This document shows positions 21,397-24,688 of a stretch of DNA of 46,655 nt, one piece after another. Origin of the DNA: Chloroflexota bacterium (GTDB lineage: Bacteria; Chloroflexota; Anaerolineae; 4572-78; J111). Under the pieces are notes generated by a model that was not told the origin of the DNA, did not search any database, and saw only the letters and a list, made by a program, of their open reading frames with translations. Position 1 is the first letter of the stretch. Every line of letters starts with the position of its first letter. Where the stretch lies: NCBI GenBank assembly GCA_016860845.1, contig BOKF01000064.1, positions 1-46,655 on the forward strand, given 5' to 3'. The position numbers were made by a program, and so were the translations under genes.

Positions 21397-21840
21397 ATGA
21401 CCCAGCAATCGTCTCTAACCCAAACAAGTATACCCAAAGCGGCTTCTCTGGACGAGGAGCGTACCAAGGCGGACAAACTAACCAGTGAGCCGGAAGGCAG
21501 CGGCAAACCAGCTACTTTGCCGCCAGAGTCGAAGGCAGTTCAGCCCCCCACAAACCAGGCGGAACTGGAGCGAGTCCGTGAACTGCTCTTAGGCCCTGAT
21601 TTAGTTCAGCAAAGACTGCGGGGCGCCGAAGTGAACCGCCTGCGGGAGATTGTTTTTGGCGACCAGATCCAGGAGTACGAACGGCGCTTTACCGACCTTG
21701 AACGGGAGATGAAGCGAGTTCTGGCCGGTCTGCGCCAGATGCAGGATGGCCTTAGCGATTTTGAGAAAACCAGACTCAACGTCTGGAAACGCTGGAGCGC
21801 GGGATGCATCAGGCCGACGATGAACTCCGGCGCGAGTTGA
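21397..21840 (+). CDS. Coiled-coil protein of the GTPase cluster, N-terminal part (probable frameshift)
   Basis: A 147-residue frame with an excellent ribosome site (AAAGGAG, 9 bases before ATG). About 50 polar residues are followed by ELERVRELLLGPDL and a coiled coil beginning REIVFGDQIQEYERRF. The heptad pattern continues to about residue 126 (SDFEKT), then breaks into WKRWSAGCIRP and stops. The minus-one frame takes up the coiled coil at the same point (QRLETLERGMHQADDELRREL) and stays open to 22226. The two frames therefore probably were one protein of about 276 residues. ELxxLRxLLLGP and FGDQIxEYERRF resemble proteins that accompany prokaryotic Rab-like GTPases and OmpA-type anchors; this recollection needs a search. 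Function unknown, possibly a cytoplasmic scaffold. Confidence 0.7.
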   Translation: MTQQSSLTQTSIPKAASLDEERTKADKLTSEPEGSGKPATLPPESKAVQPPTNQAELERVRELLLGPDLVQQRLRGAEVNRLREIVFGDQIQEYERRFTDLEREMKRVLAGLRQMQDGLSDFEKTRLNVWKRWSAGCIRPTMNSGAS

Positions 21841-22226
21841 CCAAGCTGCGCACTCACGAGGCCATGCTGCAACAGCTTCACACCCAGGTTCGCCAGCAAG
21901 AGATGCTGGGCCAAAGTGTCCAGGATCAAGCCAGCGCCTTACGCAAAGCGGCAACGCAGCAGGAAAGTGATTTGCGCTCACTTAAGGCGATGGTGGAGGA
22001 GAATCGGATGACGCACGAGCGCAAGTTGGATAGTCTGAAACGAGAAGTGCAGCACGGCGCGGATGAGTTGCTGACCGAGTTGCGCCAGGTAACCGAGCGG
22101 TTAAACATGCAAAAAACTGACCGCAAAGCCCTAGCGAGTATGCTGATCGAAGTAGCCACCCGTCTGGAAACTGGGGGCAACGTGGCCAGTCTATTCGAAG
22201 GGCTAACCAGTTCGACACAGGAATAA
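21804..22226 (+). CDS. Coiled-coil protein of the GTPase cluster, C-terminal part
   Basis: A 140-residue, almost entirely alpha-helical frame, rich in Glu, Gln, Arg and Leu. Heptads run through RTHEAMLQQLHTQVRQQEML and LKREVQHGADELLTELRQV. It ends in MLIEVATRLETGG, a short hydrophobic helix seen at the end of many such scaffolds. It overlaps the N-terminal part by 37 bases in another frame. GGAG at 21794 could allow an independent start at ATG 21804, but continuity of the coiled coil across the overlap argues for a single broken or misassembled gene. It ends four bases before the membrane-anchor gene, consistent with one operon. Confidence 0.65.
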   Translation: MHQADDELRRELTKLRTHEAMLQQLHTQVRQQEMLGQSVQDQASALRKAATQQESDLRSLKAMVEENRMTHERKLDSLKREVQHGADELLTELRQVTERLNMQKTDRKALASMLIEVATRLETGGNVASLFEGLTSSTQE

Positions 22227-22229
22227 GAC

Positions 22230-23660
22230 ATGCCAACCGGCAAAGACAATGGATACGCGGCGGAACTGGAAGAACTCCGCCGCGTCCTGCTCAAACCAGA
22301 TGCCCTGATAGACAAAATCAGTCCGGTCATCGCTGACATTTTGGAAGAACAGATCGCTCAATCGGGTGATAAAGTAGCCCAGGCCATTGCCCCCGTGATT
22401 GGCGAGGCCATTCGCCGCCAGGTCTATTCTGCCCGCGAGGACATTATTGATGCCCTCTATCCCGTTATTGGCCAGACAGTCAACAAGGCCATGACCGAGG
22501 CGGTGCAGGAATTAGCCCGAACCATAGATACTCGGGTCCGGGAGGGCTTTCAACCCTCCCAGAATTTAATCCGGCGTTGGTTAGCCCGCTTGCGTGGTGT
22601 CTCGGCGGCTGAATATAATTTGCGCCAGCTCTTGCCCTACGCCATTAGAGAGATCTTTCTGATTCAGCGCGAGTCAGGGCTGTTGATTCACCATCTTTCC
22701 AATGAAGCCGTGGCAGCCCAAAATCGTGACCTGGTCAGCGGGATGCTGACCGCTATCCGTGATTTTACCCGCGAGGCGTTTGGCCGGGGAGAAAGTGGCG
22801 AACTGGGGGCCATCGAGTATGAGTCGCTCCATATTATTTTGCAGGCAGGTGGAGCTGCCTACCTGGCCGTGGTCTTGGATGGGACTGAACCGCCCGGCTT
22901 TCGAGAACAAATGCGCCAGGCGCTCATTCCCATTCACGAGCAGCACTACAACAGCCTAAAAAACTACGATGGCAGCGATGATGACCTCGTCAAAACGGCG
23001 GATAAAATTCTGACCTCCTTTTTCCCTATCTCTCGAAATCCGGCCAAACGGGAGGGTCTCTCGGGTTTCCAAAAGTTCATTCTGGTGTTGCTGGCCATGT
23101 TTATGATTGTACCGCCGGTTGCGCTTTGTGGCGGGTGGATCTGGCATGTCGAAAGCAGTCTGGCGGCTCTGGCCGTACCTTCACCCACCCCAACCGCTAC
23201 CTATACCCCCACCCCTACCTTTACCCTGACCCCTACTCCAACAGCTACCTATACCCCCACCCCGACGCCAACCTTCACCAGCACACCGACGCCCACCTAT
23301 ACCCCCACCCCGACCTATAGCCCGACGCCCACCTTTACCGTTACACCCAAACCAGCAACGGCTACGCCAACCCCAACCACCACCCCAACCTTTACCCCCA
23401 CCCCATCCCCCTTTACAGGCGTGATGATTGGCAATGTTTTCTTGCGTAATGCTCCTTCAACGGAGGCCAGAAGTACCGGCCTGGTTGCGCCTCTGGGCGC
23501 GCCGGTTGAAATTCTGGCCCAGCAAGGTGATTGGTACCGGGTACGCATCGTTCTGCCCGGAGAACCGGCGGTTGAAATTGTCGGCTGGATTCAGGCGAGT
23601 TGGGTCACTCTACTCAAACCTGTACTCCCAGAACTAATTACCCCTACTCCTATACCATAA
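22230..23660 (+). CDS. Single-pass membrane anchor: conserved cytoplasmic domain, Thr/Pro stalk, SH3b-like tail
   Basis: A 476-residue protein with a modular layout. Residues 1-278 are cytoplasmic, starting with ELEELRRVLLKPDAL, then helices with PVIADILEEQI and PVIGEAI repeats. The block IREIFLIQRESGLLIHHLS is followed by LVSGMLTAIRDFTREAFG, which I recall from the N-terminal half of OmpA-family proteins encoded beside Rab-like GTPases. One membrane segment lies at about 281-305, then a TPTPT stalk of about 80 residues (316-394) outside the cell. An SH3b-like domain follows (about 397-462, NVFLRNAPS, GDWYRVRI, GWIQASWV) that could bind the cell wall. Compared with the OmpA versions, the wall-binding end has been exchanged, fitting a cell without a typical outer membrane. 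Probable role: the wall-attached receptor or effector of the GTPase encoded next. Confidence 0.82.
   Translation: MPTGKDNGYAAELEELRRVLLKPDALIDKISPVIADILEEQIAQSGDKVAQAIAPVIGEAIRRQVYSAREDIIDALYPVIGQTVNKAMTEAVQELARTIDTRVREGFQPSQNLIRRWLARLRGVSAAEYNLRQLLPYAIREIFLIQRESGLLIHHLSNEAVAAQNRDLVSGMLTAIRDFTREAFGRGESGELGAIEYESLHIILQAGGAAYLAVVLDGTEPPGFREQMRQALIPIHEQHYNSLKNYDGSDDDLVKTADKILTSFFPISRNPAKREGLSGFQKFILVLLAMFMIVPPVALCGGWIWHVESSLAALAVPSPTPTATYTPTPTFTLTPTPTATYTPTPTPTFTSTPTPTYTPTPTYSPTPTFTVTPKPATATPTPTTTPTFTPTPSPFTGVMIGNVFLRNAPSTEARSTGLVAPLGAPVEILAQQGDWYRVRIVLPGEPAVEIVGWIQASWVTLLKPVLPELITPTPIP
23176..23412 (+). repeat. Low-complexity Thr/Pro-coding repeat (extracellular stalk)
   Basis: About 80 codons made of ACC/ACG/ACT-CCC/CCA/CCG alternations with occasional TAT and TTT (units such as TPTPTF, TPTATY, TPTPTY). 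It codes for an extended stalk. The nucleotide repeats are prone to length change by slippage. Confidence 0.9.
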
Positions 23661-23682: not shown

Positions 23683-24222
23683 ATGATTGCTGAGGATAAA
23701 CAAGCGGCAGCAAAGTTCAATAAAAAAGTATGTATCCTGGGTGATTTTTCCGTGGGTAAAACCAGCCTGGTGCGCCGGTTTATTGAGGGTATCTTTAGCG
23801 AAAAATATCTCAGTACCATTGGGGTGAAGGTAGATCGTAAAGCGATTACGGTGCCTTATAAAGGGGAAACGGCGCACCTCACCATGATTGTCTGGGACCT
23901 GGCCGGCAGCGAAAAGTTCACTCAAGCCCGGGCCAACTACCTGCGTGGGGCGGCGGGAGCTATCCTTGTTTGTGATCTAACCCGTTCTGCAACCCTGGCA
24001 AGCCTGTCAGGATACATCACCGACCTGCGCCAACTTAGCCCAACAGCCAAACTCTTACTGGCGGCCAATAAGTTTGATTTGGTTGAAGGCCAGCAAATTG
24101 CTTTTCCACAAGTAGAAGCAGCAGCCAACCGTTTCAATTTGCCCTTTTTCCTGACCAGCGCCAAAACCGGTGCTGCCGTTGAGCTAATGTTTCAACGCCT
24201 GGGCCAAATGCTACTGGAATAA
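23683..24222 (+). CDS. Rab/Ras-like small GTPase
   Basis: A 179-residue P-loop GTPase of the Ras superfamily. Visible motifs: P-loop GDFSVGKTS (20-28), switch I threonine in YLSTIGV (T45), WDLAGSEKF (71-79), NKFD (129-132) and TSAKTG (158-163). The position equivalent to Ras Gln61 is Ser76, so intrinsic hydrolysis may be slow and a partner may be needed. There is no C-terminal cysteine for lipidation. ATG 23683 is used; GTG 23674 is an alternative and neither has a strong ribosome site. It follows the membrane anchor and precedes a PAS-like module. Prokaryotic GTPases of this kind control polarity or motility in a few studied cases; here the output is unknown. Confidence 0.92.
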   Translation: MIAEDKQAAAKFNKKVCILGDFSVGKTSLVRRFIEGIFSEKYLSTIGVKVDRKAITVPYKGETAHLTMIVWDLAGSEKFTQARANYLRGAAGAILVCDLTRSATLASLSGYITDLRQLSPTAKLLLAANKFDLVEGQQIAFPQVEAAANRFNLPFFLTSAKTGAAVELMFQRLGQMLLE

Positions 24223-24235
24223 GGTGATAACGCCT

Positions 24236-24688
24236 GTGGATAAAGAGCTTGAAGCCTGGGTCCACGCCCACGTTGTCAAAAAGCAAAATATTGCCTATGC
24301 TCTGGTTGATGAACAATTGCGTATCCTGGCCAGCAACGAGGCCCTGCCCCAGTGGGCAGTAGGCAGTTCAAATAACATCATCGAGCAGTCGCTCCTTGAG
24401 CTGTTCCCCGAGCTGATCGGGGTCGAAGATATCTTGCGCCAACTGGCACGTGACCCCGACCTACCCTTTGTGTTACCCCAAATTCAGCGTTCCCTGCCGG
24501 ACGGCGCTACCCGCTATTTTAACCTGGAGATTGAACCCCTCCCTCAATTTGGGCATGTTTTACTGGTCATCATTACCGATGTGACGACCCAGACCCACTT
24601 GGAACAACAACTCCAGCAACAGCAGCATGAACTGAGCCTGCAAGACGGAACAAAACTTTCGGGACCGCCTATGAGGCCGGACATCTGA
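24236..24688 (+). CDS. Stand-alone PAS-like module following the GTPase
   Basis: A 150-residue protein that aligns over its first about 125 residues with the N terminus of the GGDEF-EAL protein at 18869. Shared features are KKQNIAYAL versus RRQNLPYAL, SLLELFPELIGVEDI versus PLPELFPELVGLEDR, LPQI, and a C-terminal LEQQLQQQQHEL coiled-coil start. The pattern is PAS-like: a central helix, then strands ending in VLLVIITDVT. The coiled coil breaks off after about 25 residues into GTKLSGPPMRPDI, so the gene may be a truncated copy that once had an output domain. GTG 24236 is preferred because AAGGTGA lies 8 bases upstream; GTG 24224 is also in frame. Its stop is 24 bases from the convergent aminotransferase gene. 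Confidence 0.7.
   Translation: MDKELEAWVHAHVVKKQNIAYALVDEQLRILASNEALPQWAVGSSNNIIEQSLLELFPELIGVEDILRQLARDPDLPFVLPQIQRSLPDGATRYFNLEIEPLPQFGHVLLVIITDVTTQTHLEQQLQQQQHELSLQDGTKLSGPPMRPDI

Follow-up and report, generated by a model that had tools for sequence, protein, structure and literature searches.

A Group 1 Rup-like GTPase locus with a predicted longin-domain membrane anchor in a Chloroflexota bacterium

Eukaryotic Rab, Ran, Ras and Rho proteins are very similar to the Group 1 Rup GTPases, for which an operon type with one unnamed partner domain was described in 2014 by Wuichet and Sogaard-Andersen, at a time when experiments had yet to characterise any Rup member, as stated in parts of PMC4316618. 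The same paper mentions that a Group 1 rup is transcribed in the cyanobacterium Nostoc punctiforme. In Myxococcus, MglA and its partner MglB set front-rear polarity, according to passages of PMC10329633 and PMC9481161. In parts of PMC3521125, longins are seen as descendants of the Roadblock-type domains found in prokaryotic regulators of MglA, later extended to Rabs, and sections of PMC10933270 and PMC3521125 treat the longin, Roadblock, profilin and PAS-like folds as related.

The window analysed here, i.e., the whole stretch of 46,655 nucleotides, contains the following features of a probable locus of this kind.

18869..21235, + strand: PAS head - PAS - GGDEF - EAL protein, 788 aa (EAL 3e-64, GGDEF 6.1e-49, PAS)
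21397..21840, + strand: coiled-coil protein, first part, 147 aa frame (profile match 7e-24; homology over residues 56-126)
21804..22226, + strand: coiled-coil protein, second part, 140 aa frame (profile match 1e-40; same gene, frame change near 21769)
22230..23660, + strand: membrane anchor with predicted longin domain, 476 aa
22251..22592, + strand: helical region of the anchor, residues 8-121 (secondary structure and conservation; repeated P-V-I type segments by reading)
22638..23033, + strand: predicted longin domain, residues ~137-268 (predicted structure)
23070..23138, + strand: single transmembrane helix, residues ~281-303 (hydropathy)
23175..23417, + strand: Thr/Pro-rich stalk, residues ~316-396 (by reading of the sequence)
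23433..23606, + strand: SH3_3 (SH3b) domain, residues 402-459 (Pfam)
23674..24222, + strand: small GTPase, Rab-like and of the Rup kind, 182 aa from a GTG start (Pfam Ras 1.3e-35, over the curated cut-off)
24224..24688, + strand: stand-alone PAS head, 154 aa from a GTG start (predicted post-PAS helix with Gln132, 24617-24619)

A preliminary description had reported that the genes for the coiled coil, the anchor, the GTPase and the PAS module follow each other closely in one direction; all lie on the + strand, and the gaps between them are 3, 13 and 1 bases. The four-gene module which it proposed is conserved and was recovered well beyond this genome, all four genes occurring together in 67 of 80 related loci, so that the grouping is not due to chance; its account of the composition had overlooked the GGDEF-EAL output enzyme, the interruption of the coiled-coil gene and the predicted longin fold. 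Among 47 well-flanked loci three are incomplete (L075 without GTPase and coiled coil, L120 without coiled coil and L136 without PAS head), and in G145 anchor and GTPase lie on separate contigs. By record title and tail we sorted the loci into a KSB1-type group (13 loci) and a Chloroflexota-type group (67 loci), a grouping of our own in which the titles of L120, L127, L131 and L134 read only 'bacterium'. When 301 Chloroflexota genomes were searched with a profile of the cytosolic domain of the anchor, 13 were positive; this profile replaced a whole-anchor search, which had returned 222 of the 301 genomes because it was swamped by Thr/Pro repeats. Counts of tails and outputs were taken from Pfam matches. 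Distance correlations are also expected under plain vertical descent.

The GTPase is a single-domain protein of the Ras superfamily, its length lying inside the 150-240 aa of Group 1 Rup, and among solved chains it is nearest to Rabs. The Gln61 position is occupied by serine, as read earlier (Ser79, 23908-23910, in W-D-L-A-G-S-E). In 75 GTPases, the window and the near-identical L062 both being counted, W74-D75 is kept throughout, the G3 Asp thus being retained, Gly78 of G3 is substituted in 11 proteins, and position 79 is Ser in 36, Gly in 23, Ile in nine, Glu in three and one of four singletons, but never Gln. A kinship with MglA, suggested in the preliminary description, was not supported: the GTPase is Rup-like, and within 300 kb of the anchor on the same contig no Roadblock gene was found in the 13 carrier genomes, some of whose contigs span only ~10-16 kb. 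Roadblock genes (PF03259, E <= 0.001) do occur elsewhere in 12 of these genomes. An MglA-type polarity module was rejected as the family, since the GTPase is Rab/Rup-like and lacks MglB coupling within the limits of the contigs, several of them short.

The anchor has a hydropathy peak at residues 283-301, followed by a Thr/Pro-rich stretch and a tail matching Pfam SH3_3 (3.1e-8, over the curated cut-off), in accordance with the single-pass protein with stalk and SH3b tail that had been described. In its cytosolic domain the predicted structure displays the longin order b1-b2-a1-b3-b4-b5-a2-a3, and the best eight Foldseek matches have ~10% identity and moderate TM-scores of 0.25-0.33 (by model) or 0.44-0.64 (by target). 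Pfam longin models matched none of four sequences, nor did profile comparison with solved chains bring up a longin as far as E 5, so the longin assignment is drawn entirely from the predicted structure. Longins diverge strongly in sequence, and in eukaryotes longin domains help to control Rab switches. A Roadblock identity, first considered by eye, was dropped since model and searches favour longin; PF03259 (E <= 0.001) did not match the anchor domain in any of the 13 carrier genomes. A viral fold library gave no match at E <= 0.001, and its weak matches include synaptobrevin/longin-named proteins of large viruses.

Hydropathy shows a transmembrane segment in 61 of the 64 Chloroflexota-type anchors that are not truncated, the other three being without one, and in 11 of 12 KSB1-type anchors. 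The link of the cytosolic domain to OmpA, mentioned in the preliminary description, was confirmed in other phyla, where the domain precedes OmpA. OmpA is present in 11 of 13 KSB1-type anchors, in which none of the four families found is an SH3 family, whereas SH3_3 is present in 42 of 68 Chloroflexota-type and window anchors (no match at E <= 0.01 in the other 26), and OmpA is not among 25 of their 27 families that were listed. These counts support the earlier proposal that in Chloroflexota the OmpA-type tail of other phyla has been swapped for a stalk and SH3b, with the inner part being kept. At the level of single loci, the L070 anchor has a stalk and SH3b-like tail and those of L120 and L140 have OmpA-like tails. 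The anchors of L122, L130 and L137 stop just past the cytosolic domain, so a wall tail is not essential; these three loci retain coiled coil, GTPase and PAS-head protein. That these are cells without a typical outer membrane, as had been assumed, is disputed for Chloroflexota (parts of PMC8871954).

The coiled-coil protein of the preliminary description was confirmed by homology, but not as a single intact gene, for in the window it is divided into two overlapping frames. The CFX10 record L062 has the same sequence across this gene, and near 21769 both are 1 base shorter than L063, where a single open frame encodes 276 aa. A programmed frameshift is unsupported because the frames of relatives are open; the interruption, on which window and CFX10 agree, may be a real mutation or an assembly error, and with the gene interrupted the window copy may be missing one part of the system. 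The gene is present in 75 of the 80 loci. Coiled coil and anchor have an N-terminal motif in common (62 of 74 coiled coils and 64 of 80 anchors; shuffled means 0.44 and 1.14), numbers that describe and do not test, as the motif was read off these same sequences. The coiled-coil protein probably co-assembles with the helical part of the anchor.

The PAS-like reading of the last module agrees with a Pfam PAS_4 match (1.6e-5, over the curated cut-off) and with a model (pLDDT 87.9) whose best Foldseek match is LOV/PAS (1.6e-6); none of the 50 matches listed is a longin by title, which by itself excludes nothing. Gln132 is conserved in 85 of 86 PAS-head sequences, with a gap in the remaining one. 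The upstream 788-aa protein carries the same PAS head (profile 8e-35) with an intact post-PAS motif, Q-x-R-N-E-L, and would be the c-di-GMP output module of the system. PAS-head proteins carry signalling or regulatory output domains, with cyclase, sigma-54 and HD outputs among the relatives.

We consider it somewhat probable (about 0.6) that the window holds a Group 1 Rup signalling system in which the anchor bears a longin domain, as predicted, and the GTPase sets the output through the PAS head. The anchor would hold the longin at the cytosolic face of the membrane and reach the cell wall through stalk and SH3b, while the coiled-coil protein would assemble with its helical part. To the Rab-like GTPase the longin would offer a docking site or act as its regulator (an effector, or a factor resembling exchange factors), much as longins do for eukaryotic Rabs, any GEF or GAP role being conjectural. 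The GTPase, without a catalytic Gln of its own, would contact both the PAS head and the helix with the conserved Gln that follows it, and in this way set the state of the output enzyme, here c-di-GMP turnover by the GGDEF-EAL protein, with the stand-alone head as a competing or adaptor subunit. A bolder version, to us doubtful, is a true bacterial Rab-longin pair, homologous to the eukaryotic pairing but outside eukaryotes and Asgard archaea, with the longin as exchange factor or effector and the whole serving widely as an input unit that can be placed in front of c-di-GMP, kinase, cyclase and sigma-54 outputs.

The same parts could be ordered differently. If stalk and SH3b, or OmpA, sense the wall, the longin would be the exchange factor and the GTPase would relay the wall state to c-di-GMP or kinase outputs, from outside to inside. 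Both the output domains on PAS-head proteins and the exchange of wall-binding domains between phyla around a constant inner part suit this tentative reading, to which the complete gene sets beside tail-less anchors run counter. With an MglA-like placement device, the wall tie would determine where the GTPase sits, and with it the output enzyme or some machine for motility or growth; the Myxococcus precedent and an anchored scaffold with coiled coil, which would suit a positional cue, speak for it. We judge it unlikely in view of the Rab/Rup-like GTPase, the lack of neighbouring Roadblock genes in 13 genomes with some short contigs, and the lack of motility families in a scan of 27 window proteins, all encoded outside 24713-30032.

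Two further alternatives concern single parts. The longin likeness might reflect a generic PAS-like alpha/beta arrangement in a domain that does not bind GTPases and perhaps serves in sensing or dimerisation; the relatedness of these folds, the lack of sequence-level longin matches and the Roadblock chains in the Foldseek list, such as MglB (rank 23, E 4.7e-3), are consistent with this, which we nevertheless hold to be improbable. The stand-alone PAS module could also be what is left of a longer histidine kinase after loss of the catalytic part, with no role of its own, as 69 of the 84 frames with a PAS head in these loci measure 350-599 aa, many with kinase domains, and as the motif behind Gln132 is altered in the window (Q at 134, H at 135). 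However, its Ka/Ks against L063 is 0.106, in the range of its neighbours, and short head-bearing frames exist also in L063, L089 and L101, so that we regard a remnant as possible, though questionable.

If the longin of the Group 1 Rup reading is true, a switch pairing of eukaryotic membrane traffic has an operon-encoded bacterial counterpart open to purification, and the Roadblock-to-longin origin view (parts of PMC3521125) becomes checkable. The PAS domain with its conserved-Gln helix would be a likely GTPase-responsive head on many signalling proteins, and the wall-binding tails display a clean exchange between phyla.

Among known systems, the actinobacterial conservons CvnA-D also encode a GTPase together with a regulatory partner and a kinase within a single operon, an analogy taken from parts of PMC4316618, but their partner is MglB-type and those parts describe no wall anchor of this kind for them. 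In MglA/MglB, too, a small Ras-like GTPase is encoded beside a partner that belongs to the broad Roadblock/longin class; the window GTPase differs in keeping the G3 Asp and in its proximity to Rabs, its partner has no Roadblock Pfam match, and the neighbours are different. Eukaryotic longin Rab regulators (Mon1-Ccz1, TRAPP longins, Fuzzy-Inturned) resemble the locus in placing a longin, here predicted, beside a Rab-like GTPase at a membrane, whereas the bacterial domain is fused to a transmembrane segment and wall-binding tail, shows no similarity to them detectable by Pfam or solved-chain profiles, and would act in exchange only by analogy. The closest likeness is to Group 1 Rup itself, as portrayed in parts of PMC4316618: a GTPase without the G3 Gln and without MglB, a coiled-coil gene nearby, a protein with a conserved unnamed domain followed by a transmembrane segment and wall-binding tail, and an output protein in whose N-terminal region one Gln is invariant, to which Gln132 would correspond. 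Where that account has an OmpA C-terminus 'often' and outputs 'typically' as GGDEF/EAL fusions or histidine kinases, the window anchor bears a Thr/Pro stalk and SH3b, and relatives here also have cyclase, sigma-54 and HD outputs. The unnamed domain is read here as a predicted longin, the N-terminal region is read as a predicted PAS head whose Gln lies in the helix that follows, and the window adds a stand-alone PAS head.

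Genes of the probable Rup locus in the window, from open frames and Pfam
18869-21235, plus strand, PAS-PAS-GGDEF-EAL protein (frames, Pfam)
21397-21840 and 21804-22226, plus strand, coiled-coil protein in two frames (frames)
22230-23660, plus strand, anchor, 476 aa
23674-24222, plus strand, GTPase, 182 aa (Pfam Ras, 1.3e-35)
24224-24688, plus strand, stand-alone PAS module, 154 aa (Pfam PAS_4, 1.6e-5)

The anchor gave a Pfam match to SH3_3 (3.1e-8) which, like the Ras and PAS_4 matches, exceeded the curated cut-off. Its cytosolic part matched no Pfam family above cut-off and, judging from the structural model, very probably adopts a longin fold; one transmembrane helix (around residues 281-303), a Thr/Pro stalk and the SH3b domain follow. 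The nearest genome (G001) differs at 7 of 3,401 bases over 21300-24700, with equal length, and the anchor of Chloroflexi bacterium CFX10 (locus L062) is a 100% match. Upstream of the Rup locus, genes for response regulators and PAS/GAF histidine kinases are closely packed over 1457-18141 together with one for an RR-GGDEF-EAL protein, and genes for a metallophosphoesterase and a solute-binding protein are interspersed. Elsewhere, AT skew is strong (0.274) at 42001-44000 over a minus-strand ABC permease gene, the flanking bins showing 0.109 and 0.030.

One scan of genome contigs confirmed 377 anchor relatives, and the best 80 loci were retained, including L062, which is nearly identical to the window. 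Within 4 kb of the anchor, 74 of these 80 had a GTPase, 75 a coiled-coil protein and 72 a PAS-head protein, and 67 had all three. Where at least 3 kb flanked the anchor on both sides, the full set was present at 44 of 47 loci, L075, L120 and L136 being the well-flanked loci without one or two of the genes. The most frequent order was coiled coil-anchor-GTPase-PAS (36 loci, plus 6 with two PAS proteins), GTPase-coiled coil-anchor-PAS occurring at 16, and the median gap between same-strand neighbours was 4.5 bases (230 pairs). In an even draw the cytosolic domain was detected in 13 of 301 Chloroflexota genomes (6 of 179 genera), all 13 of which carry a related GTPase, in one case (G145) on a separate contig from the anchor. 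Overall, the system is patchy but coherent.

The preliminary description had proposed that an OmpA anchor is here exchanged for an SH3b wall binder. Grouped by record title and anchor tail, the 13 KSB1-type anchors gave Pfam matches to OmpA in 11 cases and to BON in 8; the two without OmpA are presumably L131, where a contig end cuts the anchor, and L136, with a 242-aa frame. SH3_3 was found in 42 of the 68 Chloroflexota-type anchors including the window's (E ≤ 0.01), and OmpA was absent among the 25 of 27 Pfam families listed for them. OmpA occurred in none of the 120 protein-database relatives listed for the window anchor and in 117 of the 120 listed for a cyanobacterial member, whose organism-named relatives among those listed were all cyanobacterial; a third list held names from KSB1, Calditrichota and Ignavibacteria. 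Furthermore, the KSB1-type rows formed a single clade (support 100/100, 80-row tree). The exchange is therefore real at the phylum level. The accessible text of PMC8871954 treats the absence of an outer membrane in Chloroflexota as disputed. The wall-binding tail is dispensable, because three anchor relatives (L122:483-1319, L130:9740-10804 and L137:9710-10780) stop directly behind the longin domain and have neither transmembrane helix nor tail. At L073:6570-8180 a second protein (536 aa) matches the anchor profile at residues 12-194 only, with weaker scores.

The coiled-coil gene (21397-22226) is the same in the window and CFX10 and, near 21769, one base shorter than in the related locus L063, where a single 276-aa frame is open. 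Compared with L063, Ka/Ks was 0.458 for the first part (125 codons) and 0.12 for the second. The split may reflect a recent loss, an assembly error or recoding. In the window (21397-22310) and in related loci, the coiled coil and the anchor resemble each other at their N-termini, in a motif of the form hydrophobic-x-x-hydrophobic-R-x-three hydrophobics that may be a docking or pairing element common to both.

The set of 86 PAS-head rows (2 from the window, 84 from the 80 loci) includes those of the near-identical L062. Gln132 was present in 85 of the 86, the remaining one having a gap, and it was the sole invariant column of an 83-row alignment. In the model it lies on a helix (H121-140) behind the PAS core, in the context Q-x-R-N-E-L. 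This motif is intact in the window GGDEF-EAL protein; the stand-alone module retains Gln132 but departs from it at positions 134 (Q) and 135 (H). Its Ka/Ks against L063 (0.106) is close to those of its neighbours (anchor 0.08, GTPase 0.138, GGDEF-EAL 0.148), suggesting a retained gene. Short frames holding only a PAS head also lie beside other Rup systems (L089:13099-13530, L101:7209-7679, L063:11971-12459). Pfam families in 83 head proteins included HisKA (43), class III cyclase (16), sigma-54 activator (11), GGDEF (4), HD_5 (3) and SpoIIE (2), counts that may overlap and come from the 25 of 37 families listed. For the window organism, a putative c-di-GMP output is somewhat favoured.

In the GTPases, the P-loop G-K-T, N-K-x-D and S-A residues were each conserved in 72 to 75 of 75, Gln at position 61 occurred in 0 of 75, and 57 of the 60 nearest solved chains listed are Rab or Sec4 by name. 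Roadblock (PF03259) matches were obtained in 12 of the 13 carrier genomes. In none of the 13 did one lie within 300 kb on the anchor's contig, some of these contigs being only about 10-16 kb, and on this count a GTPase-MglB pairing was ruled out.

That a Rab-like GTPase adjoins a longin tethered to the membrane points to recruitment and regulation of the GTPase by the longin at this site, after which the GTPase would meet the PAS head; the putative GTPase-longin contact is fairly likely. Longin, GTPase and PAS-head distances co-vary, for which plain co-inheritance accounts too. The signal might run from the wall to the output, or the GTPase might place the output. In the accessible text of PMC4316618, the 2014 authors call the Gln of the output protein noteworthy, given that the GTPase lacks its catalytic Gln; the position of this Gln on a helix would allow catalysis in trans, but a structural or docking function fits just as well.

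In the Group 1 Rup neighbourhood, according to the accessible text of Wuichet and Sogaard-Andersen (2014; PMC4316618), a GTPase without the G3 Gln is accompanied by a coiled-coil protein, by an unknown domain that often precedes a transmembrane segment and OmpA, and by an output module with an invariant Gln in its N-terminal region. We conclude, with a probability of about 0.93, that the window system belongs to the Group 1 Rup kind, and the window locus matches the neighbourhood described there.
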